Of a stretch of 32,371 nucleotides of DNA, positions 12,428-30,307 are shown in pieces; position 1 is the first letter of the stretch; every line of letters starts with the position of its first letter. The notes beneath the pieces were generated by a model. The model was not told where the DNA came from and did not search any database. It saw only the letters and a list, made by a program, of their open reading frames with translations. The position numbers were made by a program, and so were the translations under genes. The stretch lies in contig JAQWSL010000046.1 in assembly GCA_029243225.1 (NCBI GenBank), forward strand, positions 1-32,371, in the 5' to 3' direction. The DNA is from Flavobacteriales bacterium. GTDB taxonomy: Bacteria > Bacteroidota > Bacteroidia > Flavobacteriales_D > Parvicellaceae.

Positions 12428-12667
12428 ATGGAAAATGAATTAAAAGATAAAGTTCTTCAAGCAATAGAAGATTTAAGGCCCTACTTAAAAAATGATGGTG
12501 GAGATATGGAACTTGTTGAAATTACACCAGAAAAAAAAGTGATGATTCGCTTTTTAGGTGCATGTCAGACTTGCTCTGTTAGTCCAGTTACATTGAGAGC
12601 TGGTTTAGAAGAGTCTCTTAAGAATGTTGCACCTGAAATAACAGGTGTAGAGGCGATTAATAATTAA
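12428..12667 (+). CDS. Nfu/NifU C-terminal-domain Fe-S scaffold protein
   Basis: This 79-residue single-domain protein has the NifU C-terminal signature: IEDLRPYLKNDGGDMELV, then FLGACQTCSVSPVTLRAGLE with the cluster ligands C46 and C49. It probably holds and delivers [4Fe-4S] clusters, together with the Mrp ATPase encoded one base upstream. The in-frame open region extends upstream into mrp, but ATG 12428 gives the normal domain start. Its TAA overlaps the stop of the convergent TonB receptor gene by two bases. Confidence 0.92.
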   Translation: MENELKDKVLQAIEDLRPYLKNDGGDMELVEITPEKKVMIRFLGACQTCSVSPVTLRAGLEESLKNVAPEITGVEAINN

Positions 12668-15087
12668 AATTCAAATTGTAGACCAATAGAGGGTAATAGT
12701 GTTCCAGACACATTTTCTATTAATTTTGTTTGGTACCTACTTGGATCATTCGAATTAATTAATCTGTTGCCATTGTCATCAGTTGGAACAATCAAACTTG
12801 GTGCAGTTTCTGATTGAAAATTATAAGCATTTTGAATGTCTAAGTAAAGATTAAGTGCCATTTTTTTCCAATACCATTTTTTGTCTATTCTGATATCTAG
12901 TCCATGATTTGCTTTTAGTCTAAGTTCATTTAATTGATTGTAATCTAATAGCCCCATGTTAGCGACATCCCAAACTTGTATGTAAGATGAGTTTAAAGTA
13001 TCGAATGGAGTATAAGGAGATCCGCCTGAAAATCTGAATTTCACACCAATCTCCCAATTTTTCTTAAATTTTTTACCTGCAGTTAAACTAATTATATTGC
13101 CATTGTCCCAAGCTGAGGGTTTGTAATTGTTGTTTTGATCTTTAAATTCACTTCTAACCCATGTGTAGGCAAGTATGCCATAAAAACTTTTACTTAATTT
13201 TTGTTGGGCTAAAAATTCTACTCCATAAGCCCGACCTTGAGAAGAGCTTGTAACCTCTTCGTTTCCAATAACACCAAAATCGCCACCCAGATTTGCTAAC
13301 GACACATTTTTATTTACTAAAAAAGGATAATTATTATAATTTTTATAAAACCCTTCAATAGTTATTTTGTTAAATGTGGCTGGATTGAATTCTAACCCAG
13401 CCACTATATGATCATTAGATATATAGGTAATTTCATTTTCTTTATTTACTAACAAATTGTTATTATCCCTGTAACCCATAACAGTATATGCAGGAAGTTG
13501 GTAATACCTACCAACATTAAAGTTGAGGCTCATTTTGTTAGTTAATGCATAAGCTGCACTAAATCTTGGCGATAATTGTTTAATAGGATTAGCCATTTGT
13601 TTTGAGTAGGAGTTGTGGTCAGCTCTAACTCCTAAGGATAAGATTAGCTTATTGTTGATTAATTTTTTACTTCCTTGAGCAAAGTAGGAAAATTTGTGAA
13701 AAGCTAAATCAGATTCAAAATCTACGATTGTATTGGAATCGCCAAGTGGAATTTTAAGAAATGTACTGTTTGTGTATTCTGCATATTCATAACCAAATCC
13801 AAAATTTAATTTCCATCCATTTTTCCTTAGCGTGTTTTCAAACCTCAGTTTGTTTTCAATTTCTTGCGAATTGTAATCTTGAAGGAGGTTTTGATTTGTT
13901 TCAACGTTCTCTGCATATTTTTTAGATGTGTTATTGAGGTGGTTTCTTGAAATAACTAGGGTTTGAAAGCTGTGTTCTTTAAAGTGTGTCCATTTACCAC
14001 CGAAAGTGTAATTCCATTGTGTTGACACAGGTAGGTATCCCAATATGTATTCATTTCTTTCGTATGTGTCAGGGTCAGAAATGTTTTCATTCAAACCTAA
14101 ATTTAATTTAAATTCATCTATAGCACCTAAACCTATAAAAGTTAAATTATTTTTCTCGTTTAGTTTAATGCTTTGCTTAAATTGAATGTCGTTGTAAGTT
14201 GGTAAAAAAGGCAGCTGAATAGCTTTAAATAAAAATTGTAAATAAGATCTTCTAGCAGATAAAACAAAAGTTGACTTTTTACCTATTGGTCCGTCTAATG
14301 TTAGTCCTATATCGCTAGATCCAATTGTAAATGAAGAAGCTAATCTCTCGTTATTGCCTTCAACTTGTTTAAATTCTAAAACCGAACTTAGTGTATTCCC
14401 TCTATTTGCTGGAAAAGCTCCAGAATATAAATCTACTTCACTAATAAAATTAACATTAATCATGCCTACAGGTCCACCACTTGAGCCTTGTGTTGCAAAG
14501 TGATTAATATTTGGCACTTCAATTCCATCTAAATAAAATCTATTCTCATTAGGTGCTCCACCTCTAATTATAATGTCGTTCCTAAAAGAAACTGTAGATG
14601 CAACACCTGGAAGAGATTGAATAACTTTCGAAATATCTCTGTTCCCCCCTGGATTTCTATATATTTCTGTAGCACTTATATTTCTTTTACTTACTGGACT
14701 TTCTTCAGATTTTGTAAATGGAGATGCTTTTATTTCTATTTCTTCAAGAGATGTAGTTGTTTCAATAAGACCTGCATTAATAGTTGTTGGTTTGTTAGGA
14801 GCTACTATTACTTCTGATGCGGTGTATGTTTGATATCCAATAAATGAAAATGTTACATTATAAGTGCCAGACATAACATCTTTAATAATGAAATTCCCTT
14901 CAAAGTCAGAAGAAATACCCCTTTCAATTTCATTTATGTAAATGTTGGCAAAAGGAATAGGTTCATTGTTAATGTTGTTAAATACTCTTCCTTTAATGAT
15001 TCCGTTTTGAGCAAATAAATTAGAAAATATTGTAAAAATTAAAGTTACTAATAAAGCAAATTTGTAATAGTTTGAATAGTTAATCAT
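12664..15087 (-). CDS. TonB-dependent outer-membrane receptor with carboxypeptidase-like N-terminal domain
   Basis: The 807-residue protein has a signal peptide at about 1-26 (ending FAQNG). A carboxypeptidase-regulatory-like domain spans about 28-112 (IIKGRVFNNINNEPIPFANI, then SFIGYQTYTA). A TonB plug follows with NPGGNRDISKVIQSLPGV, IIIRGGAPNENRFYLDGIEVP and the SEVDLYSGAFPANRGNTLSS segment. The rest is a 22-strand-type barrel ending in SIGLQFEF with a terminal Phe. No SusD partner is adjacent, so a SusC role is unlikely; the substrate is unknown. The gene is divergent from a MerR regulator, and its predicted promoter overlaps an arm of the inverted repeat there. Confidence 0.92.
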   Translation of the reverse strand: MINYSNYYKFALLVTLIFTIFSNLFAQNGIIKGRVFNNINNEPIPFANIYINEIERGISSDFEGNFIIKDVMSGTYNVTFSFIGYQTYTASEVIVAPNKPTTINAGLIETTTSLEEIEIKASPFTKSEESPVSKRNISATEIYRNPGGNRDISKVIQSLPGVASTVSFRNDIIIRGGAPNENRFYLDGIEVPNINHFATQGSSGGPVGMINVNFISEVDLYSGAFPANRGNTLSSVLEFKQVEGNNERLASSFTIGSSDIGLTLDGPIGKKSTFVLSARRSYLQFLFKAIQLPFLPTYNDIQFKQSIKLNEKNNLTFIGLGAIDEFKLNLGLNENISDPDTYERNEYILGYLPVSTQWNYTFGGKWTHFKEHSFQTLVISRNHLNNTSKKYAENVETNQNLLQDYNSQEIENKLRFENTLRKNGWKLNFGFGYEYAEYTNSTFLKIPLGDSNTIVDFESDLAFHKFSYFAQGSKKLINNKLILSLGVRADHNSYSKQMANPIKQLSPRFSAAYALTNKMSLNFNVGRYYQLPAYTVMGYRDNNNLLVNKENEITYISNDHIVAGLEFNPATFNKITIEGFYKNYNNYPFLVNKNVSLANLGGDFGVIGNEEVTSSSQGRAYGVEFLAQQKLSKSFYGILAYTWVRSEFKDQNNNYKPSAWDNGNIISLTAGKKFKKNWEIGVKFRFSGGSPYTPFDTLNSSYIQVWDVANMGLLDYNQLNELRLKANHGLDIRIDKKWYWKKMALNLYLDIQNAYNFQSETAPSLIVPTDDNGNRLINSNDPSRYQTKLIENVSGTLLPSIGLQFEF

Positions 15088-15178
15088 GTGTTTAAGCTTT
15101 GAGTTTTTAAAAAAGAGTTTATAAGTTTTATATTTTAACTTTTTTATAATGTTTAACTTATATATGTTTATTTTTTTT

Positions 15179-15211
15179 CAAAAATAGTTAAACAAACGCT
15201 TTGTTTTACAA
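15179..15211 (-). promoter_or_regulatory. promoter of the TonB receptor gene, overlapping the inverted repeat
   Basis: On the minus strand, TATTTTTG (15186-15179) is a perfect TAnnTTTG box. TTG at 15211-15209 lies upstream with a 22-base spacer, at the long end of the known range. The box overlaps the left arm of the inverted repeat at 15181-15228. The leader would be about 85 bases. Confidence 0.45.
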
Positions 15212-15228
15212 TTTTGTTTAACTATTTT
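15181..15228. promoter_or_regulatory. 48-base operator candidate: perfect 16-base inverted repeat between the TonB receptor gene and the MerR gene
   Basis: The left arm AAAATAGTTAAACAAA (15181-15196) and the right arm TTTGTTTAACTATTTT (15213-15228) are exact reverse complements, with a 16-base spacer. Related TTAAACAAA half-sites occur again at 15238-15246 (exact), at 15200-15208 inside the spacer on the other strand (one mismatch), and in part at 15150-15156. Each arm contains the -7 box of a candidate outward promoter. The position is right for autoregulation by the MerR protein and joint control of the TonB receptor gene. Binding is inferred. Confidence 0.6.
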
Positions 15229-15230
15229 AG
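15200..15230 (+). promoter_or_regulatory. promoter of the MerR regulator and crt operon
   Basis: TTTG (15200-15203), a 19-base spacer and TATTTTAG (15223-15230), one mismatch from TAnnTTTG. It overlaps the right arm of the inverted repeat. The predicted leader is about 11 bases before the ATG at 15247, and a third half-site (15238-15246) lies inside it. Confidence 0.45.
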
Positions 15231-15246
15231 CACAAAATTAAACAAA

Positions 15247-16125
15247 ATGTCGATATATTCAATAGCAGATTTAGAAAAATTGTCGGGAATTAAAGCCCAT
15301 ACTTTAAGAATTTGGGAGAAAAGGTATAATATAGTTGAACCCAATAGGACAGATACTAACATTAGATTTTACAATGATGATCAATTAAGAAAAATTCTTA
15401 ATGTTTCGTTTCTTATCAATCAGGGATTTAAAATAAGTAAAATTGCTAAACTTGACACTACTAATTTAGCTTTAAAGGTTAAAGAAAGTAGTTCGTTTTC
15501 AACAAGTCATGAATCATACATTAACGATTTAATCGTTTCATCGCTAACTTTCGATTCTGAACTTTTTAATAAATCATTTGATGAGGTGATTAACAAGCTT
15601 GGTTTGTCAATTACATACGAATCAATCATCATTCCAAGTCTTAACAAAATCGGTTCTTTATGGACTGCAGGCGATTTATTTCCCGCTCAGGAACATTTTT
15701 TATCTAACCTTATAAAGCAAAAGCTTTATCATATTTTAGAAGAAAGGAGGTCTAAAACTAATATTGGTAAAACTATTTTGCTCTTTACACCTCCTTGGGA
15801 AAGCCATGACTTCGCACTAATTTATGCAGATATTATTCTTCAAGAAAGAGGTGTCAATGTTTGTAACATTGGTAGGGCCTTTTCTAAAGAAATTATTTAT
15901 GAATGTATAGAGAATACTAAGCCAGACTATATATTTACTACAATCATTGTGGGACATAAAGTTACCGAAATTCAAGAGCTTTGCGACCGCATTAACTCTT
16001 GTAAGAAGAATAGCAAGTTTCTACTTGGTGGTAATATGAATCTATTAAAGTTGGTCAATTCTAACGCACACTTATTTAATTCGTGTAAAGAATTTGAAAC
16101 GTATGTTAAATTTCAAATTAATTAA
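15247..16125 (+). CDS. MerR-type regulator with cobalamin-binding-like domain (CarH/LitR-like)
   Basis: The 292-residue protein has a MerR winged helix (1-75: SIADLEKLSGIKAHTLRIWEKRY). A four-helix region (about 85-165) carries W139-x9-E149-H150, and a B12-fold-like Rossmann domain (about 174-292) includes E185-S-H187. In CarH photoreceptors the W-x9-E-H motif caps adenosylcobalamin and the E/D-x-H-x-x-G histidine binds cobalt. Here H187 is kept, but the Gly is Ala190, and the residue after Trp139 is Thr where Thermus CarH has its light-state His. The ATG at 15247 gives the normal MerR N-terminus; a TTG at 15214 lies inside the operator. It is first in the crt operon and probably represses it. 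Confidence 0.85.
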   Translation: MSIYSIADLEKLSGIKAHTLRIWEKRYNIVEPNRTDTNIRFYNDDQLRKILNVSFLINQGFKISKIAKLDTTNLALKVKESSSFSTSHESYINDLIVSSLTFDSELFNKSFDEVINKLGLSITYESIIIPSLNKIGSLWTAGDLFPAQEHFLSNLIKQKLYHILEERRSKTNIGKTILLFTPPWESHDFALIYADIILQERGVNVCNIGRAFSKEIIYECIENTKPDYIFTTIIVGHKVTEIQELCDRINSCKKNSKFLLGGNMNLLKLVNSNAHLFNSCKEFETYVKFQIN

Positions 16126-16128
16126 GTT

Positions 16129-17595
16129 TTGAAAAGAGTTGGTATTATTGGCACAGGTTTTTCAAGTCTAACTGCAGCTATAGAACTTTCTAAAATGGGT
16201 TTTGAAGTTGATGTTTTTGAGAAAAATTCATCTCCAGGTGGAAGGGCTAGGCATTTCAAAGTTGATGGTTTTACGTTTGATATGGGTCCTAGCTGGTATT
16301 GGATGCCAGACGTTTTTGAAGATTTTTTTAATAAACACAATAAAAAAATTTCTGATTATTATGATTTAGTAAAGTTAAATCCTGGTTTTTCTATTTATTA
16401 TGAAGATCAAAACAGACTCGATATCCCAGAATCTTTTGAAGAGTTAACTAAAGTCTTTGAATCAATAGAAAAGGGGAGTAGTGAAAGACTCGAGAAATTC
16501 ATAAAAAGAGCTGAGAAAAAATATGATATAGGAGTTAGGAATTTAGTTTACAAACCCTCAAAATCAATTTTAGAATTTTTAAATATTAAAGTAATCAAAG
16601 GTGCTTTTCATCTAGATATATTCACTGTTTTCAGCAAATATGTTAGGAGATATTTTAAGCATCCAAAACTTGTGAAACTTATGGAGTTTCCTATTTTATT
16701 TTTAGGTGCTCTTCCAAGCAATACTCCAGCAATGTATAGTTTAATGAATTATTCTGCTTTAAAGCAAGGGACGTATTATCCCATTGGTGGCTTTTTTAAA
16801 ATTATTGATTCTCTAGTTAAAATTGCTGAAGAAAGTGGTGTCAAATTTCATTACGATTCTGAAATAACCAAGATTAATGTATCAAAAAAAATAGTTGAAA
16901 GTTTTGAAATTAATAACAAAAAAATACCTGTAGATATTGTAGTTGCAGGTGCAGATTATCATCATGTAGAAACAAATCTTTTACAAAAAAAATATAGAAA
17001 TTATGATGATAAATATTGGGATTCTAGAAAATTAGCACCTTCAAGTTTATTGTTTTATTTAGGTGTTAACAAAAAACTTTCAAATGTTAACCATCACACC
17101 TTGTTTTTTGATCAAGATTTCGCAATTCATGCAGCTGAAATTTACGAAACTCCTAAATGGCCATCTTCTCCACTTTTTTATATGAGCTGTCCGTCTGTTT
17201 CAGATGAAACCATTGCTCCAAAGGGAATGGAGAATCTAATGCTGTTAATACCATTGGCTCCAGGTCTTGAAGATACTCAAGAAATGAGAGAAAAGTATTT
17301 CAATATTATGATTGAAAGAATTCAAAAGCTGACCGGTAACGATTTTAAAGAAAATATAGTTTATAAAAAATCATATTGTGTTAAAGACTTTGAGAAAGAT
17401 TATCATGCTTACAAAGGAAATGCCTACGGCTTGGCAAATACATTAAATCAAACAGCTATCCTAAAGCCTAGTTTAAGAAATAAACAAATCAAGAATCTAT
17501 TTTATACAGGACAACTTACTGTTCCTGGCCCTGGTGTTCCACCATCCATTATTTCCGGTCAAGTTGTTGCGAGTGAAATAAATAAACATTTTTAA
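16129..17595 (+). CDS. crtI: phytoene desaturase, TTG start
   Basis: The product converts phytoene to lycopene. The 488-residue FAD enzyme begins with the dinucleotide site VGIIGTGFSSLTAAIELSKMG and E31, followed by SPGGRARHFKVDGFTFDMG, and ends with the CrtI signature FYTGQLTVPGPGVPPSIISG. The start is TTG at 16129: an in-frame TAA at 16123-16125 excludes anything upstream, and the next Met would remove the FAD loop. It starts three bases after the regulator stop, so TTG may lower or couple its translation. Ten bases separate it from crtB. Confidence 0.94.
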   Translation: MKRVGIIGTGFSSLTAAIELSKMGFEVDVFEKNSSPGGRARHFKVDGFTFDMGPSWYWMPDVFEDFFNKHNKKISDYYDLVKLNPGFSIYYEDQNRLDIPESFEELTKVFESIEKGSSERLEKFIKRAEKKYDIGVRNLVYKPSKSILEFLNIKVIKGAFHLDIFTVFSKYVRRYFKHPKLVKLMEFPILFLGALPSNTPAMYSLMNYSALKQGTYYPIGGFFKIIDSLVKIAEESGVKFHYDSEITKINVSKKIVESFEINNKKIPVDIVVAGADYHHVETNLLQKKYRNYDDKYWDSRKLAPSSLLFYLGVNKKLSNVNHHTLFFDQDFAIHAAEIYETPKWPSSPLFYMSCPSVSDETIAPKGMENLMLLIPLAPGLEDTQEMREKYFNIMIERIQKLTGNDFKENIVYKKSYCVKDFEKDYHAYKGNAYGLANTLNQTAILKPSLRNKQIKNLFYTGQLTVPGPGVPPSIISGQVVASEINKHF

Positions 17596-17604
17596 AATTT
17601 AGCC

Positions 17605-18441
17605 ATGAAAAAATTATATGATGACATATCCTTCAGTTCAAGTAAGCTAATTACTAAAACCTACAGTACAAGTTTTTCTTTAGGAATTTATTTTTTAAAT
17701 AAAAAAATACATAATGCAATTTATGCAATTTATGGTTTTGTTAGGTTAGCAGATGAAATTGTTGATTCTTTTCATGATTATCCAAAAGAGAAGTTACTTA
17801 AAGAATTTAAAGAAGAAACATTTAAAGCTCTAGAAATGGGGATTAGTATCAATCCTGTAATTAATTCTTTTCAAAAAATTGTAAATGAATATAATATAGA
17901 TCACGAGCTTATTCATATATTTTTAAGAAGTATGGAACAAGATTTATCTAAAATTGAGTATTCTAATGAAAAAGAAAAATATGATCAATATATTGTAGGT
18001 TCTGCAGAGGTTGTAGGTTTAATGTGTTTAATGGTTTTTGTTAATGGAGATAAAGAAATGTATGATTCTTTAGAAAACTCAGCTAGAAAATTAGGTGCAG
18101 CTCTTCAAAAAGTGAATTTCTTAAGAGACGTTAATGCTGATTTTAATTCTTTAGGAAGATCATATTTCCCTAAAGTAGATTTAAATAATTTTTCAAAGGA
18201 AGATAAGATAAGTATTGAAGAGGATATTGACGCTGATTTTAAGTTTGCTTATGAGGGTATTAGAAAACTTCCAAAGTCTTCTAAATTAGGTGTCTTTATT
18301 GCCTACACATATTACATTTCATTATTTAAAAAAATCAAAGCTTTACCTCCAACACAGATGATGAGTTCTAGAGTAAGAATTAATAATTCTAAAAAATTAT
18401 ATTTAGCTTGCAAGTCAATGTTGGTATATAAGTTGAATTAG
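17605..18441 (+). CDS. crtB: phytoene synthase
   Basis: The enzyme condenses two geranylgeranyl diphosphates head-to-head into phytoene. The 278-residue protein has both Asp-rich metal motifs: VRLADEIVDSF (D50-x3-D54) and NFLRDVNADFNSLGRSYFP (D175-x3-D179). The early SKLITKTYSTSFSLG segment is typical of the trans-isoprenyl synthase family. It lies between crtI and crtZ with gaps of 9 and 2 bases. Geranylgeranyl diphosphate must come from a prenyl transferase encoded elsewhere, since no crtE is in the window. Confidence 0.95.
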   Translation: MKKLYDDISFSSSKLITKTYSTSFSLGIYFLNKKIHNAIYAIYGFVRLADEIVDSFHDYPKEKLLKEFKEETFKALEMGISINPVINSFQKIVNEYNIDHELIHIFLRSMEQDLSKIEYSNEKEKYDQYIVGSAEVVGLMCLMVFVNGDKEMYDSLENSARKLGAALQKVNFLRDVNADFNSLGRSYFPKVDLNNFSKEDKISIEEDIDADFKFAYEGIRKLPKSSKLGVFIAYTYYISLFKKIKALPPTQMMSSRVRINNSKKLYLACKSMLVYKLN

Positions 18442-18443
18442 TC

Positions 18444-18905
18444 ATGATTTTTTTTAATGTTTTTATCTGCATAATTACCTTTTTTCTTATGGAAGGTGTT
18501 GCTTGGTTTACTCATAAATATGTGATGCACGGATTCTTATGGAAGGTTCATAAAGACCATCATGTTAAAACCACAAAATCTTTTTTTGAAAATAATGATT
18601 TGTTTTTTTTAATTTTCGCAATTCCCGGTTCCTTGTTTATTATTTATGGTTCAATAATTGGATATTCACAACTCTTGTTTTGGGTCGGACTAGGAATCAC
18701 AATTTATGGTGCAGCATATTTTTTTGTTCACGATTTATTTATTCATCAAAGAATTAAAGTTCTTAAGAATTCAAAAAACCCATATTTATTAGCAATAAGA
18801 AGAGGGCATAAGGTTCATCATAAACATTTAGGAAAACAAGATGGTGAGTGCTTTGGTATGTTGTTAGTCCCGTTCAAGTATTTCAAACACTATTCTAAAA
18901 AATAA
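18444..18905 (+). CDS. crtZ: beta-carotene 3-hydroxylase
   Basis: This di-iron membrane hydroxylase of 153 residues adds hydroxyls to both beta-ionone rings, giving zeaxanthin. All four histidine boxes are present: HKYVMH (H-x4-H), HKDHH (H-x2-HH), HDLFIH (H-x4-H) and HKVHH (H-x2-HH). Hydrophobic segments lie at the N-terminus and in the middle. It is 2 bases from crtB and shares one base with crtY (TAATG), which indicates strong translational coupling. Confidence 0.94.
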   Translation: MIFFNVFICIITFFLMEGVAWFTHKYVMHGFLWKVHKDHHVKTTKSFFENNDLFFLIFAIPGSLFIIYGSIIGYSQLLFWVGLGITIYGAAYFFVHDLFIHQRIKVLKNSKNPYLLAIRRGHKVHHKHLGKQDGECFGMLLVPFKYFKHYSKK

Positions 18906-19588
18906 TGTTTACATACTTATACTTACTTATTGATTTTTTTGTAATTCTAATTCCTCTATTTTTCACTTTTCATAAAAGACTGAATTTCTTCCGAAATTAC
19001 CCTCCATTTTTCATTTCAACATTTGTTGTTGGTGCTGTGTTTGTTGTTTGGGATGTTTATTTTACCAATTTGGGATATTGGGGATTTAATCCCAATTATT
19101 TAACAGGGGCTAATCTTTTTTCATTGCCAATTGAAGAAGTTTTATTCTTTTTTTGTATTCCATATGCCTGTGTTTTTTCTTATCATGTCTTAGAGAAAAT
19201 CTACCCTGTTTCTGATTCACATTATGTGAAGAAATTTAATTATTTCCTTTCTTTAGTTTTATTTGTTTTTGGGCTGGTTTTTATTGAAAAATATTATACA
19301 TCTATAACATTTATTTCATTGTCAATCATTTTATTAATAGCCCCATTTTTTATAAATCTTAAAATGTTTTATAGAGCTTATGGTATTTTATTGTTTCCTT
19401 TTTTAATTACCGATGGGTTATTAACTGGTTCTTTTATTGAAGATCAGGTTGTTTGGTATAATGATGATTATAATCTTGGGTTTCGGATTTTAACAATCCC
19501 TGTTGAAGATGTTTTTTATGGGATGTTGCTGATACTTTTGAATGTGATAATTTATGAGAAGTTAAGAAATTCTGTTTTTAAGAGTTAG
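18905..19588 (+). CDS. crtY: lycopene beta-cyclase, fused heterodimer-type (CrtYc-CrtYd)
   Basis: The 227-residue membrane protein consists of two homologous halves. Each contains the cyclase motif: NLFSLPIEEVLFFFCIPYA in the first and ILTIPVEDVFYGMLLIL in the second. This is the fused version of the CrtYc/CrtYd cyclase, unrelated to the FAD-dependent CrtY. It forms the beta rings of beta-carotene, the substrate of CrtZ. It is the last crt gene. Its 3' end overlaps the 3' end of the convergent aquaporin gene by 27 bases, leaving no space for an ordinary terminator between them. Confidence 0.9.
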   Translation: MFTYLYLLIDFFVILIPLFFTFHKRLNFFRNYPPFFISTFVVGAVFVVWDVYFTNLGYWGFNPNYLTGANLFSLPIEEVLFFFCIPYACVFSYHVLEKIYPVSDSHYVKKFNYFLSLVLFVFGLVFIEKYYTSITFISLSIILLIAPFFINLKMFYRAYGILLFPFLITDGLLTGSFIEDQVVWYNDDYNLGFRILTIPVEDVFYGMLLILLNVIIYEKLRNSVFKS

Positions 19589-20305
19589 CTTAAAAGTTAA
19601 TGCTCCTAAAACTCCTCCAATTAGTGGTGCTAGAATGTAAACCACTAACCAACCAATTCCGTTGTGGTTAAATGTAAATTGTTCCCATCCGTTTAAATGT
19701 GCTATTATTCTTGGAGCAATATCTCTTGCTGGATTCATACAGCATTGGGTATAAGGAGCGACTACATATATTATAATGCCCACTGATAGCCCAATTAAAG
19801 TAGGGCTTAATTTTTTTATTTTTGAGATGTTGGTAATAATGAATATTAGGTATACAAGGGAAAAAGTAGCTAATATTTCAATGAAACAAGCTATTGGAAG
19901 ACTTACCCAGTCTAGGTTTTCAAATGTTGGGTTGGGGAAATATTCGCCAAAAATACAAGCAGTTTTTAAATCGTAAACTTCAATGTCATTCTTTATTAGT
20001 TTGAAAAGTATGAAGCCAGCAATTAACGCTCCTATAAATTGAGCGATTAGGTAGTAAAAGAATTCGCTCAGTTTTATTTTTTTTTCAGTTAGCATTGCTA
20101 TAGATACTGCAGGGTTCAAGTGTGCTCCAGATAATTTAGATGAGCAGTAAATCCCTAATATTACTCCGAGCGTCCAAAAAAGAGCAACTTCAAAAAGTGA
20201 ATTTATAATTTCATATATTATTGCTAACGAAACGGAACCACACCCTATGAAAACTAAAATAAATGTACCTATTATTTCACCTGTAAAAATTCTTTTAGTA
20301 CTCAT
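19562..20305 (-). CDS. aquaglyceroporin (MIP family), probable arsenite channel
   Basis: The 247-residue protein has six membrane helices and the two half-helix loops GAHLNPAVS (N64-P-A66) and CCMNPARDIAPR (N191-P-A193). Asp195 after NPAR marks the glycerol-conducting branch rather than a pure water channel. It lies one base downstream of the arsenate reductase gene. In Sinorhizobium an aquaglyceroporin (AqpS) beside arsC lets arsenite leave the cell downhill. The same role is inferred here because no ArsB or Acr3 pump is in the window. Glycerol uptake is the alternative. Confidence 0.88.
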   Translation of the reverse strand: MSTKRIFTGEIIGTFILVFIGCGSVSLAIIYEIINSLFEVALFWTLGVILGIYCSSKLSGAHLNPAVSIAMLTEKKIKLSEFFYYLIAQFIGALIAGFILFKLIKNDIEVYDLKTACIFGEYFPNPTFENLDWVSLPIACFIEILATFSLVYLIFIITNISKIKKLSPTLIGLSVGIIIYVVAPYTQCCMNPARDIAPRIIAHLNGWEQFTFNHNGIGWLVVYILAPLIGGVLGALTFKLTLKNRIS

Positions 20306-20306
20306 C

Positions 20307-20732
20307 TTAAAAGTTGTCGGTTAAGTATTTTTTGCTAAATAATTTTATTTCCTCTCTTGTTTTTTTAAAAGCACTGTTAATAGTTTCTGTTGAACCCGTA
20401 GCCTTTGTTGGGTCTATGAAGTTTTTGTGTGTTTTCATTACTTTTTCTGAGAAAATTGGGCAATATTCATTTGCATGGTCGCATACGGTTATAATATGAG
20501 TTATGCCAGTATTGATGTAGTCTTCAATTTTGTTTGAGGTTTGCTGTGAGATGTCTATTTGATCTTCTTTTAGTGTCTCAATTACTTTTGAATTTACACC
20601 ATGAGCTTCAATTCCAGCGCTAAATATTTCGGCATTAATATTTTCTTCTTTACAGAAGAATCTTAGGTAAGCCTCTGCCATCTGACTTCGGCAGCTATTC
20701 CCTGTGCATATAACTAAAATTTTCGTATACAT
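20307..20732 (-). CDS. arsC: arsenate reductase, thioredoxin-coupled low-molecular-weight phosphatase type
   Basis: The enzyme reduces arsenate to arsenite. The 141-residue protein has the phosphatase loop CTGNSCRS (C9-x5-R15) and the Cys pair C84 and C91 in TVCDHANEYCPIF, with the same six-residue separation as C82 and C89 of the staphylococcal ArsC. The full thioredoxin-linked cysteine relay is therefore present, which argues against a plain tyrosine phosphatase. A start at 20771 is possible, but ATG 20732 places the first strand as in the family. No ArsR repressor is adjacent. Confidence 0.88.
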   Translation of the reverse strand: MYTKILVICTGNSCRSQMAEAYLRFFCKEENINAEIFSAGIEAHGVNSKVIETLKEDQIDISQQTSNKIEDYINTGITHIITVCDHANEYCPIFSEKVMKTHKNFIDPTKATGSTETINSAFKKTREEIKLFSKKYLTDNF

Positions 20733-20783
20733 AATTGTTAGAAGAAGGTCTAAATTAATATATTTCAACATATAATAAAATCC

Positions 20784-28233: not shown

Positions 28234-30307
28234 TAGGGAGTCCATAGTGAGAGTTTATTTGATCTATATTTTGATCTTGGTGTTTGCTCTATTTGTTATT
28301 GTAAAGATAGTTTCAATACAATTTTTTAATGGAGGAGAGCTTGTGGAGCAAGCAGAAAAACAGACCTATAAGCTGAAGAAGGTTAAGGCACCTAGAGGAA
28401 ATATTTTTGCAGATAACGATCAAAAAACATCTCTAGCTCTTTCGGTTCCTAGATATGAAATTCGCATGGATTTAATTACAGTAAAAGAGAGCGTTTTTGA
28501 TGAGAGAATTCATGAATTAGCTGATAGTTTATCAGCAATGTTTAATCATAAATCTAAAAACAGCTGGTTAAATGATTTGATAGCTCAACGAGATAAGAAA
28601 AATAGATATTATTTAATAAATAAATCCATTAGAAACGATGAGTTAAAAAGGTTAGAGAAATTCCCAATTTTTAATTTAGGTCAATACTCTGGGGGTTTAA
28701 TTGTTTTAAAGGAAAACAAAAGAGTTAAACCATATAATAAACTTGCAGCAAGAACAATTGGATATGTAAGAGAGGGTCAGGGAAAATATGTGGGCATTGA
28801 GGGTGCTTTTAATGATGAGTTAAAGGGCAGAGATGGAGAAATGCTAATGCAACGAATAAGAGGAAATGATTGGAAGCCAATTAAAAGTGAGTTTTCCAAA
28901 GAGCCTATTCCTGGTTGCGATATTTACTCAACTATTGATGTAAATATTCAAGATGTAGCTGAAGCAGCTTTGATGAAACAATTAAAGAATCAAAAAGCTC
29001 TTAGGGGATGTGTTGTTCTAATGGAAGTTGAGACAGGTTACATTAAAGCCATCGCAAATCTAACCCAGGATTCTGATAAGATAGAATATAATGAGAGTCT
29101 TAATCATGCGGTTGGGCTAGCTTCAGAGCCTGGGTCCACTTTTAAGTTGGCTTCGTTAATGGTTGCTTTAGATGATGAGAAAATTAAAATAACTGATAGT
29201 GTTTTAATGAATGGTACTTATCAGTTTTACAAAAAATTTAGTTTAACTGATGGGAATAAGGTGTATGGTAAAAATACTATTCAAGCTGCATTTGAAAAAT
29301 CATCTAATATTATTAGTAAAATAATAGATGATAATTATAAAGAAAACCCTCAACAATTTATTGATGGGCTTAAAAAAATAGGTTTAGACAAGAAGCTTGG
29401 ATTACCAATTATTGGTGAGGGTGTTCCATATATTAAAGATGTTGATGACCCTCTATTCTCGGGAATATCTCTTCCTTGGATGTCTATTGGTTACGAAGTT
29501 AAAATTACTCCTCTACAAACATTAGCATTTTACAATGCTGTCGCAAATAATGGTGTTATGGTGAAGCCACAGTTTGTAAAAGAAATTAGGTTTGGAAATG
29601 AAGTAAAATCAACATTTGAAAAAGAAATTATAAATCCAAAAATTTGTAAAAGCTCCACTTTAAAAGATGTTCAAATCATGCTAAAAGGAGTGGTTGAAAG
29701 AGGGACAGCTAAAAACATAAAGGCAAGAGGCTTTGATATTGCTGGAAAGACTGGAACTTCCAAGATAGCAATAAACTCTAAAGGTTATGGGTCTAAATAT
29801 CAGGCATCTTTTTGTGGCTATTTCCCAGCAGACAATCCTATGTATTCATGCATAGTGGTAATTCAAGGTCCAACAACAAATATCTATGGCTCTATCGTAT
29901 CGGGAACTGTTTTTAAAGAAATAGCAGACAAAGTATATGCTTTAGGTAACATGGAAAACAAGGAGTTGCAAATGGAGGATTTGTATTATCCATTCTCTAA
30001 ACATGGCAATAAGAAAGATTTCGTTTTTGCAAGTTCCAAAATGAAAATACCATTGAAAAAAGAATCGGGCGTTGGAAAGTGGATACATACAATTGCAAAT
30101 CAAGATGGTGTAAATGTTAAAAATAAAAGAGTTGTGAATGACAAGATTCCAAATGTTATTGGAATGGGGCTAAATGATGCTCTTTTTTTATTAGAAGATC
30201 ATGGTTTACAGGTTAAGGTTTCTGGTAGTGGTTTTGTAAGAAATCAATCAATAAACCCCGGTCAAACAATTATAAAAGGACAATTAATAACAATTGATTT
30301 AAGCTAA
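28226..30307 (+). CDS. ftsI: division penicillin-binding protein (FtsI/PBP3 type) with PASTA domain
   Basis: The 693-residue class B transpeptidase has a membrane anchor at about 9-31, then the PBP dimerisation domain (KAPRGNIFAD). The catalytic domain has the active-site S304-T-F-K307, S359-S-N361 and K508-T-G-T-S. A single PASTA domain ends the protein (about 635-693: IPNVIGMGLNDALFLLEDHG). It cross-links septal peptidoglycan. The C-terminal PASTA is usual for Bacteroidota FtsI. It shares one base with murE (TAATG). Confidence 0.95.
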   Translation: MSSRESIVRVYLIYILILVFALFVIVKIVSIQFFNGGELVEQAEKQTYKLKKVKAPRGNIFADNDQKTSLALSVPRYEIRMDLITVKESVFDERIHELADSLSAMFNHKSKNSWLNDLIAQRDKKNRYYLINKSIRNDELKRLEKFPIFNLGQYSGGLIVLKENKRVKPYNKLAARTIGYVREGQGKYVGIEGAFNDELKGRDGEMLMQRIRGNDWKPIKSEFSKEPIPGCDIYSTIDVNIQDVAEAALMKQLKNQKALRGCVVLMEVETGYIKAIANLTQDSDKIEYNESLNHAVGLASEPGSTFKLASLMVALDDEKIKITDSVLMNGTYQFYKKFSLTDGNKVYGKNTIQAAFEKSSNIISKIIDDNYKENPQQFIDGLKKIGLDKKLGLPIIGEGVPYIKDVDDPLFSGISLPWMSIGYEVKITPLQTLAFYNAVANNGVMVKPQFVKEIRFGNEVKSTFEKEIINPKICKSSTLKDVQIMLKGVVERGTAKNIKARGFDIAGKTGTSKIAINSKGYGSKYQASFCGYFPADNPMYSCIVVIQGPTTNIYGSIVSGTVFKEIADKVYALGNMENKELQMEDLYYPFSKHGNKKDFVFASSKMKIPLKKESGVGKWIHTIANQDGVNVKNKRVVNDKIPNVIGMGLNDALFLLEDHGLQVKVSGSGFVRNQSINPGQTIIKGQLITIDLS

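Follow-up and report, generated by a model that had tools for sequence, protein, structure and literature searches.

Two back-to-back inverted-repeat operators probably switch a TonB-dependent receptor gene and the crt operon together in a Flavobacteriales bacterium

In a contig of a Flavobacteriales bacterium (the whole stretch of 32,371 nucleotides analysed here is called the window), a 159-bp gap separates the gene of a TonB-dependent receptor on the minus strand from that of a MerR-type regulator on the plus strand. It was found that this gap carries two inverted-repeat operators, T and R, which are 18 bp apart and each contain the −7 box of one of two divergent promoters. A CarH/LitR-like repressor acting on the two back-to-back operators probably switches the TonB receptor gene and the crt operon together, along with a light-type regulon. 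I infer the identity of the binder, repression rather than activation, and light as the signal. The features of the locus are as follows.

12664..15087, minus strand: TonB-dependent receptor (CarboxypepD_reg and Plug; Pfam), 807 aa, divergent from the regulator gene
15164..15195, minus strand: operator T (TonB side), TTGTTTAACTATTTTTGAAAAAAAATAAACAT, with half-sites 15195-15188 (perfect) and 15171-15164 (two mismatches)
15179..15186, minus strand: predicted −7 box TATTTTTG of the TonB promoter, inside operator T, from the sequence; TTG at 15211-15209 is a possible −33 element with 22-nt spacing
15181..15196, no strand: left arm of the 16-16-16 repeat, which is the inner half of operator T (repeat search)
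15213..15228, no strand: right arm of the 16-16-16 repeat, which is the inner half of operator R (repeat search)
15214..15245, plus strand: operator R (regulator/crt side), TTGTTTAACTATTTTAGCACAAAATTAAACAA, with half-sites 15214-15221 and 15238-15245, a 16-bp spacer and no mismatch to TTGTTTAA-N16-TTAAACAA
15223..15230, plus strand: predicted −7 box TATTTTAG of the MerR-crt promoter, inside operator R, from the sequence; TTTG at 15200-15203 as the −33 element with 19-nt spacing
15247..16125, plus strand: MerR-type regulator with B12-binding_2 and B12-binding regions, CarH/LitR-like, 292 aa (Pfam, Foldseek)
16129..17595, plus strand: crtI-type phytoene desaturase (NCBIfam CrtID, above the cut-off)
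17605..18441, plus strand: crtB-type phytoene synthase (Pfam)
18444..18905, plus strand: crtZ-type hydroxylase (FA_hydroxylase; Pfam)
18905..19588, plus strand: lycopene cyclase (Pfam, NCBIfam)

The first-pass annotation of this DNA had described an exact 16-16-16 inverted repeat carrying two mirrored divergent promoters. Both were found: the arms AAAATAGTTAAACAAA (15181-15196) and TTTGTTTAACTATTTT (15213-15228) flank a 16-nt spacer, and −7-like boxes are present on both sides. The arm pair is the longest perfect inverted repeat in the window with a spacer of up to 60 nt. Dinucleotide shuffling of the whole window with the same spacer limit produced arms of at least 16 nt in 1% of cases; for the 159-bp intergenic region alone, with its 17% GC, the figure was 0.04%. 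The repeat search also revealed a larger mirror, overlooked in the annotation, with 32-nt arms (15165-15196 and 15213-15244; 88% complementarity), and each of these arms is itself an inverted repeat of the form TTGTTTAA-N16-TTAAACAA. The 16-16-16 repeat had been taken for one operator. Rather, it consists of the facing halves of two inverted-repeat operators, which have 16-bp spacers of their own and of which the outer half-sites are integral parts. The single-operator reading was rejected because relatives retain two operators with a variable gap between them. As for the extra half-sites proposed earlier, TTAAACAAA in the regulator leader (15238-15246) is the outer half of operator R, and the weak ATGTTTAT (15164-15171) is the outer half of operator T, but the sole match in the central spacer is a degenerate TTTGTTTTA, which coincides with the −33 element and is better read as that element than as a half-site. 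A terminator or an RNA element was also rejected, as there is no terminator-like site and no Rfam match. Weak sites that lie within coding genes and have two mismatches (28701-28732 in the window, for example) were taken as chance.

Flavobacterial sigma-A promoters have the consensus TTG-N17-23-TAnnTTTG. The predicted promoter of the plus side agrees with it within one mismatch, and that of the minus side has a perfect −7 box. The TTG and TAnnTTTG elements are named in PMC3587595. Is a −7 box common inside such operators? For 122 distinct operators, the orientation was taken from a gene start at most 60 bp away. In 44 of the 122, a perfect TAnnTTTG runs in the direction of the gene, versus 8 of the 122 in the reverse direction, and the boxes within one mismatch start most often at operator position 6, inside the first half-site. 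It appears that the operator typically encloses the −7 element while its second half-site lies near the predicted start, an arrangement that fits repression by occlusion. At this locus, transcription is predicted to start around 15236 on the plus strand and 15173 on the minus strand.

The operator pair is present in all of the 16 relatives that carry the TonB–MerR gene pair (the window's own genome counted), which belong to four genera (g1, g4, g5, and g9), with 0-2 mismatches per operator. In all 16, the operator on the regulator side is found 32-33 bp ahead of the MerR ATG, and the second operator is upstream of the first. In g1 the two are 18 bp apart; in g4, g5, and g9 they are separated by 29-30 bp. 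Positions relative to the TonB ATG in g8, a fifth genus, correspond to gaps of 17 and 28 bp. In several relatives, the outer half-site is only 2-3 bp from the start of the TonB gene. The annotation had proposed to check the arms and the spacer in relatives, and what is conserved is the pair of operators, not the exact 16-nt arms or the 16-bp gap. Because the two gap classes differ by 11 bp, or about one helical turn, they suggest, though do not prove, cooperative binding on one face of the DNA.

The TonB receptor itself is 52-95% identical across the relatives examined as loci. Where its gene is back-to-back with the regulator gene (g1, g4, g5, g8, and g9), it has an operator of its own. Among 12 orthologues located elsewhere in their genomes, 11 have no operator, and the one in G049 has an operator with two mismatches. 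For a further orthologue, that of G051, the coordinates place a site with one mismatch about 20 bp upstream. Since the orthologues away from the MerR gene are mostly without a site, control of the transporter seems to be lineage-specific and bound up mainly with the divergent gene order, and TonB control as an order-wide feature was rejected. The proposal that mirrored sites of one regulator link a TonB receptor to the crt genes is supported by these orthologues and by the pair in 16 of 16 relatives; joint control of the transporter and pigment genes is thus well supported by comparison. A cobalamin riboswitch for the TonB gene and its identity as a known B12 receptor were both rejected, with no Rfam match, no relative of solved structure up to an E of 0.001 and no specific NCBIfam family.

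The regulator is the sole close homologue in its own genome (one genome match). Pfam finds MerR_1 and B12-binding_2 above the cut-off, while B12-binding reaches 27.2 bits against a cut-off of 32.1. The AlphaFold model (mean pLDDT 89) is best matched by Foldseek to Thermus CarH (5c8e, E 4e-14, and 5c8d) and to the MerR cobalamin photoreceptor domain 8jbt (TM-score 0.81). The regulator has the CarH/LitR class I architecture, namely a MerR winged helix, a B12-binding_2 helix bundle, and a B12-binding Rossmann fold. The Wx9EH motif, which contacts the adenosyl group, is present, with W139, E149, and H150 unchanged across 18 sequences. The published lower-axial B12 motif is D/ExHx2G/P (PMC9304148), and the light signature GxxH and the motif definitions are given in PMC9304148 and PMC11796333. 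The regulator departs from both motifs: E185 and H187 are kept, HDFA replaces HxxG/P, and WESH replaces GxxH. The same change (GxxH to WxxH, HxxG to HxxA) was found in g1, g4, g5, and g9, while most other lineages keep GxxH...G. At residues 184-190, W-E-x-H-D-F-A stands in place of G-x-x-H-x-x-G also in loci L002, L003, L004, L010, and L015, with Wx9EH intact. The altered motif may reflect a change of the light sensor in this lineage. The NCBIfam equivalog TransRegCarH is not reached (78.9 bits against a cut-off of 400). The host could make AdoCbl, because a cobalamin adenosyltransferase gene is present in the genome. MliR, a MerR-like iron regulator of Bizionia, was rejected as the same protein, as MliR is without an effector domain (PMC9478572).

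I surveyed 80 named Bacteroidota loci around regulator homologues (788 kb). Of 89 inverted TGTTTAA/TTAAACA pairs in these loci, 58 have a spacer of exactly 16, while the reversed-motif control gave 3 pairs in all and none at spacer 16. A site with at most two mismatches is present in 65 of the 80 loci. Its placement depends on the lineage: before the regulator gene, before crtI, or, in Algoriphagus and others, before the gene of an ECF sigma factor downstream of the regulator. In the Algoriphagus loci L109, L113, L120, and L142, an operator pair 44 bp apart precedes the ECF sigma factor gene about 1.0-1.1 kb after the MerR start. This may be a cascade variant of the MerR switch.

The same signal was followed in 120 genomes of the order, of which 103 have the regulator gene and 17 do not, with at most one mismatch allowed. 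Genomes with the MerR gene have a mean of 3.14 sites, against 0.55 in the control; for those lacking it the mean is 0.35, against 0.53. The Mann-Whitney p is 5e-8, and 3e-7 outside the own family, values that ignore phylogeny and treat relatives as independent, which they are not. The contrast is also seen within genera (e.g. g33, g44, and g23). Some of the genomes with a MerR homologue among the 120 have no excess of sites (e.g. G042, G052, G055, and G076). In the own genome and its relatives, the genes adjacent to sites include PTPS-folE (divergent from a PnuC-type transporter gene), photolyase-type genes (site before or near), and genes for fasciclin-domain, SOUL, and DUF429 proteins, glutathione peroxidase, and microbial rhodopsin. 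Between the divergent PnuC-type transporter and PTPS-folE genes of the own genome (contig C23; L047, 1466-1532), twin operators are only 35 bp apart.

For rhodopsin, the 20 genes of the order with enough upstream sequence were searched within 250 bp. An operator with at most two mismatches lies upstream of 15 of the 20, versus 0.14 expected from shuffles, and one with at most one mismatch upstream of 11 of the 20. Such operators precede the rhodopsin genes at L196, L197, L198, L183, L189, and others, which covers the majority of the order's genomes that bear rhodopsin; several of these genomes have them as a pair 44 bp apart. A rhodopsin gene was not found in the own genome (86.5% complete), and a genome of the same genus has one with a site. 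Taken over these genomes, the repeat is very probably part of a shared light-response switch. The wider significance of the operator pair would lie in this light-type regulon, which reaches rhodopsin in relatives: one operator appears common to rhodopsin, carotenoid, photolyase-type, and pterin genes. Expression of rhodopsin in marine flavobacteria is reported to be light-responsive (PMC9040609), and the shared operator with its candidate repressor makes this control directly testable. The link to the TonB receptor suggests that the light state also alters cell uptake.

The following mechanism is proposed. The adjacent MerR/B12-type (CarH/LitR-like) regulator would bind both operators, as one dimer per operator or perhaps as one tetramer on the four half-sites. 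With the outer half-site near the predicted transcription start, the bound regulator would bar RNA polymerase from both promoters. The TonB receptor gene would be repressed on one side and the regulator gene with crtI-crtB-crtZ-crtY on the other. By analogy with CarH/LitR, light or photo-oxidative conditions would release the repressor, and both sides would come on together. PTPS-folE/pnuC and photolyase-type genes elsewhere, and rhodopsin and glutathione peroxidase genes in relatives, would be co-induced. A bolder version, to which I give slightly less than an even chance, makes a single CarH/LitR-derived repressor, possibly cobalamin-independent in this clade, the light switch for rhodopsin photoheterotrophy in Flavobacteriales. 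This repressor would directly repress rhodopsin, carotenoid, photolyase-type, pterin, and outer-membrane transporter genes through the inverted repeat around −7, with paired operators bound cooperatively on one face of the DNA.

What the regulator senses is the point on which another reading competes most. The operators and the repressor logic may be the same, while the regulator of this clade no longer senses AdoCbl, being CarA-like or driven by a partner as class II LitR is by a LOV protein; the input would then be photo-oxidative stress or something else. The replaced residues in g1, g4, g5, and g9 fall within the published B12 motif and the GxxH signature kept by most other lineages, and B12-independent relatives exist (PMC9304148, PMC9758184), but Wx9EH and the axial His are intact and the adenosyltransferase gene is present. 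I regard this loss as a serious possibility that falls short of an even chance. It is unlikely that the operators belong to another transcription factor, with the MerR gene merely one of its targets. The MerR-positive genomes without excess sites would suit that explanation; against it, sites stay at the background level where the MerR gene is absent, they cluster beside the MerR gene across orders even though the neighbours differ, and the half-site fits the TnnACA of CarH.

Activation from the site, in the manner of classical MerR proteins, would be expected from the family at large, as most of its members activate at long-spacer promoters (PMC9478572). Classical MerR sites, however, lie between −35 and −10, whereas the inverted repeat here encloses −7 and reaches the start region, and the relatives CarH, LitR, and CarA are repressors (PMC8156234, PMC9304148). 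Activation instead of repression is accordingly improbable. The low GC content of the region could prompt the idea that the repeat arose by chance in AT-rich DNA, or else is an RNA hairpin or terminator. This idea can be practically dismissed: arms of 16 nt are that rare in the intergenic shuffles, nothing resembling a terminator or an Rfam element was found, and the conservation of half-sites at a fixed spacing already refutes it.

How does the CarH/LitR-like repressor proposed here compare with known systems? The B12-dependent light repressors CarH/LitR of carotenoid genes in Thermus thermophilus, Myxococcus xanthus, and Streptomyces share the MerR DNA-binding domain, the helix bundle, and the B12 fold, and likewise have their gene beside crt genes and a site overlapping the promoter. 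In the CarH operators described to date, TnnACA occurs in 11-bp direct repeats set in tandem (PMC8156234, PMC9304148). The half-site TTAAACA contains this consensus (PMC9304148), but here the half-sites are inverted, with 16 bp between them, and the −7 box is enclosed. Such a design would extend what is known of the DNA-binding plasticity within the CarH family. The cobalamin motif, which may mark a lineage with a changed light sensor, also differs, as does the site regulon, which includes rhodopsin and the TonB receptor. CarA of M. xanthus, a B12-independent paralogue of CarH, represses the crt promoter as two cooperating dimers (PMC8156234). CarA keeps the B12 motif and lacks the Trp of Wx9EH (PMC9304148), whereas in the present regulator Wx9EH is intact and it is the glycines of the B12 motif that have changed. 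The annotation held that no such architecture had been described. This understates the context: control of divergent carotenoid promoters by a CarH operator was inferred in the myxobacterial Sorangiineae and Nannocystineae (PMC9304148), and in Sorangiineae two divergent promoters would be controlled, as proposed here. What is new is the operator in Bacteroidota, together with its regulon. In the accessible literature, no paper describing this operator was found, and a prior prediction in subscription papers or regulon databases is possible.

Similar gene neighbourhoods are on record in the same phylum. The accessible parts of two papers report merR-rpoE-crt clusters in Cyclobacteriaceae (Echinicola, PMC8683446) and a merR-crt cluster in Nonlabens (PMC11855829); the genes are named there, but neither an operator nor a regulon or TonB link is mentioned. 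The operator described here precedes the sigma gene in the Algoriphagus loci; in the window the crt operon directly follows the regulator gene. In Dokdonia MED134, light induces rhodopsin, photolyase, and retinal genes, as summarised in PMC9040609. This is likewise a flavobacterium, with light-responsive rhodopsin and photolyase. The available part of that text names neither regulator nor operator, for which the operator here is a candidate. A named regulator of light-responsive rhodopsin in marine flavobacteria was not found in the accessible literature.

The crt operon of the window has the order regulator, crtI, crtB, crtZ, and lycopene cyclase. The desaturase (16129-17595) exceeds the NCBIfam threshold of CrtID, a bifunctional phytoene desaturase/3,4-desaturase, and the pigment could therefore carry 3,4-desaturation. 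The opposite strand just beyond the operon (window 19562-20771) holds a gene of the aquaporin family (major intrinsic protein) beside a low-molecular-weight phosphatase/arsenate reductase-like gene.
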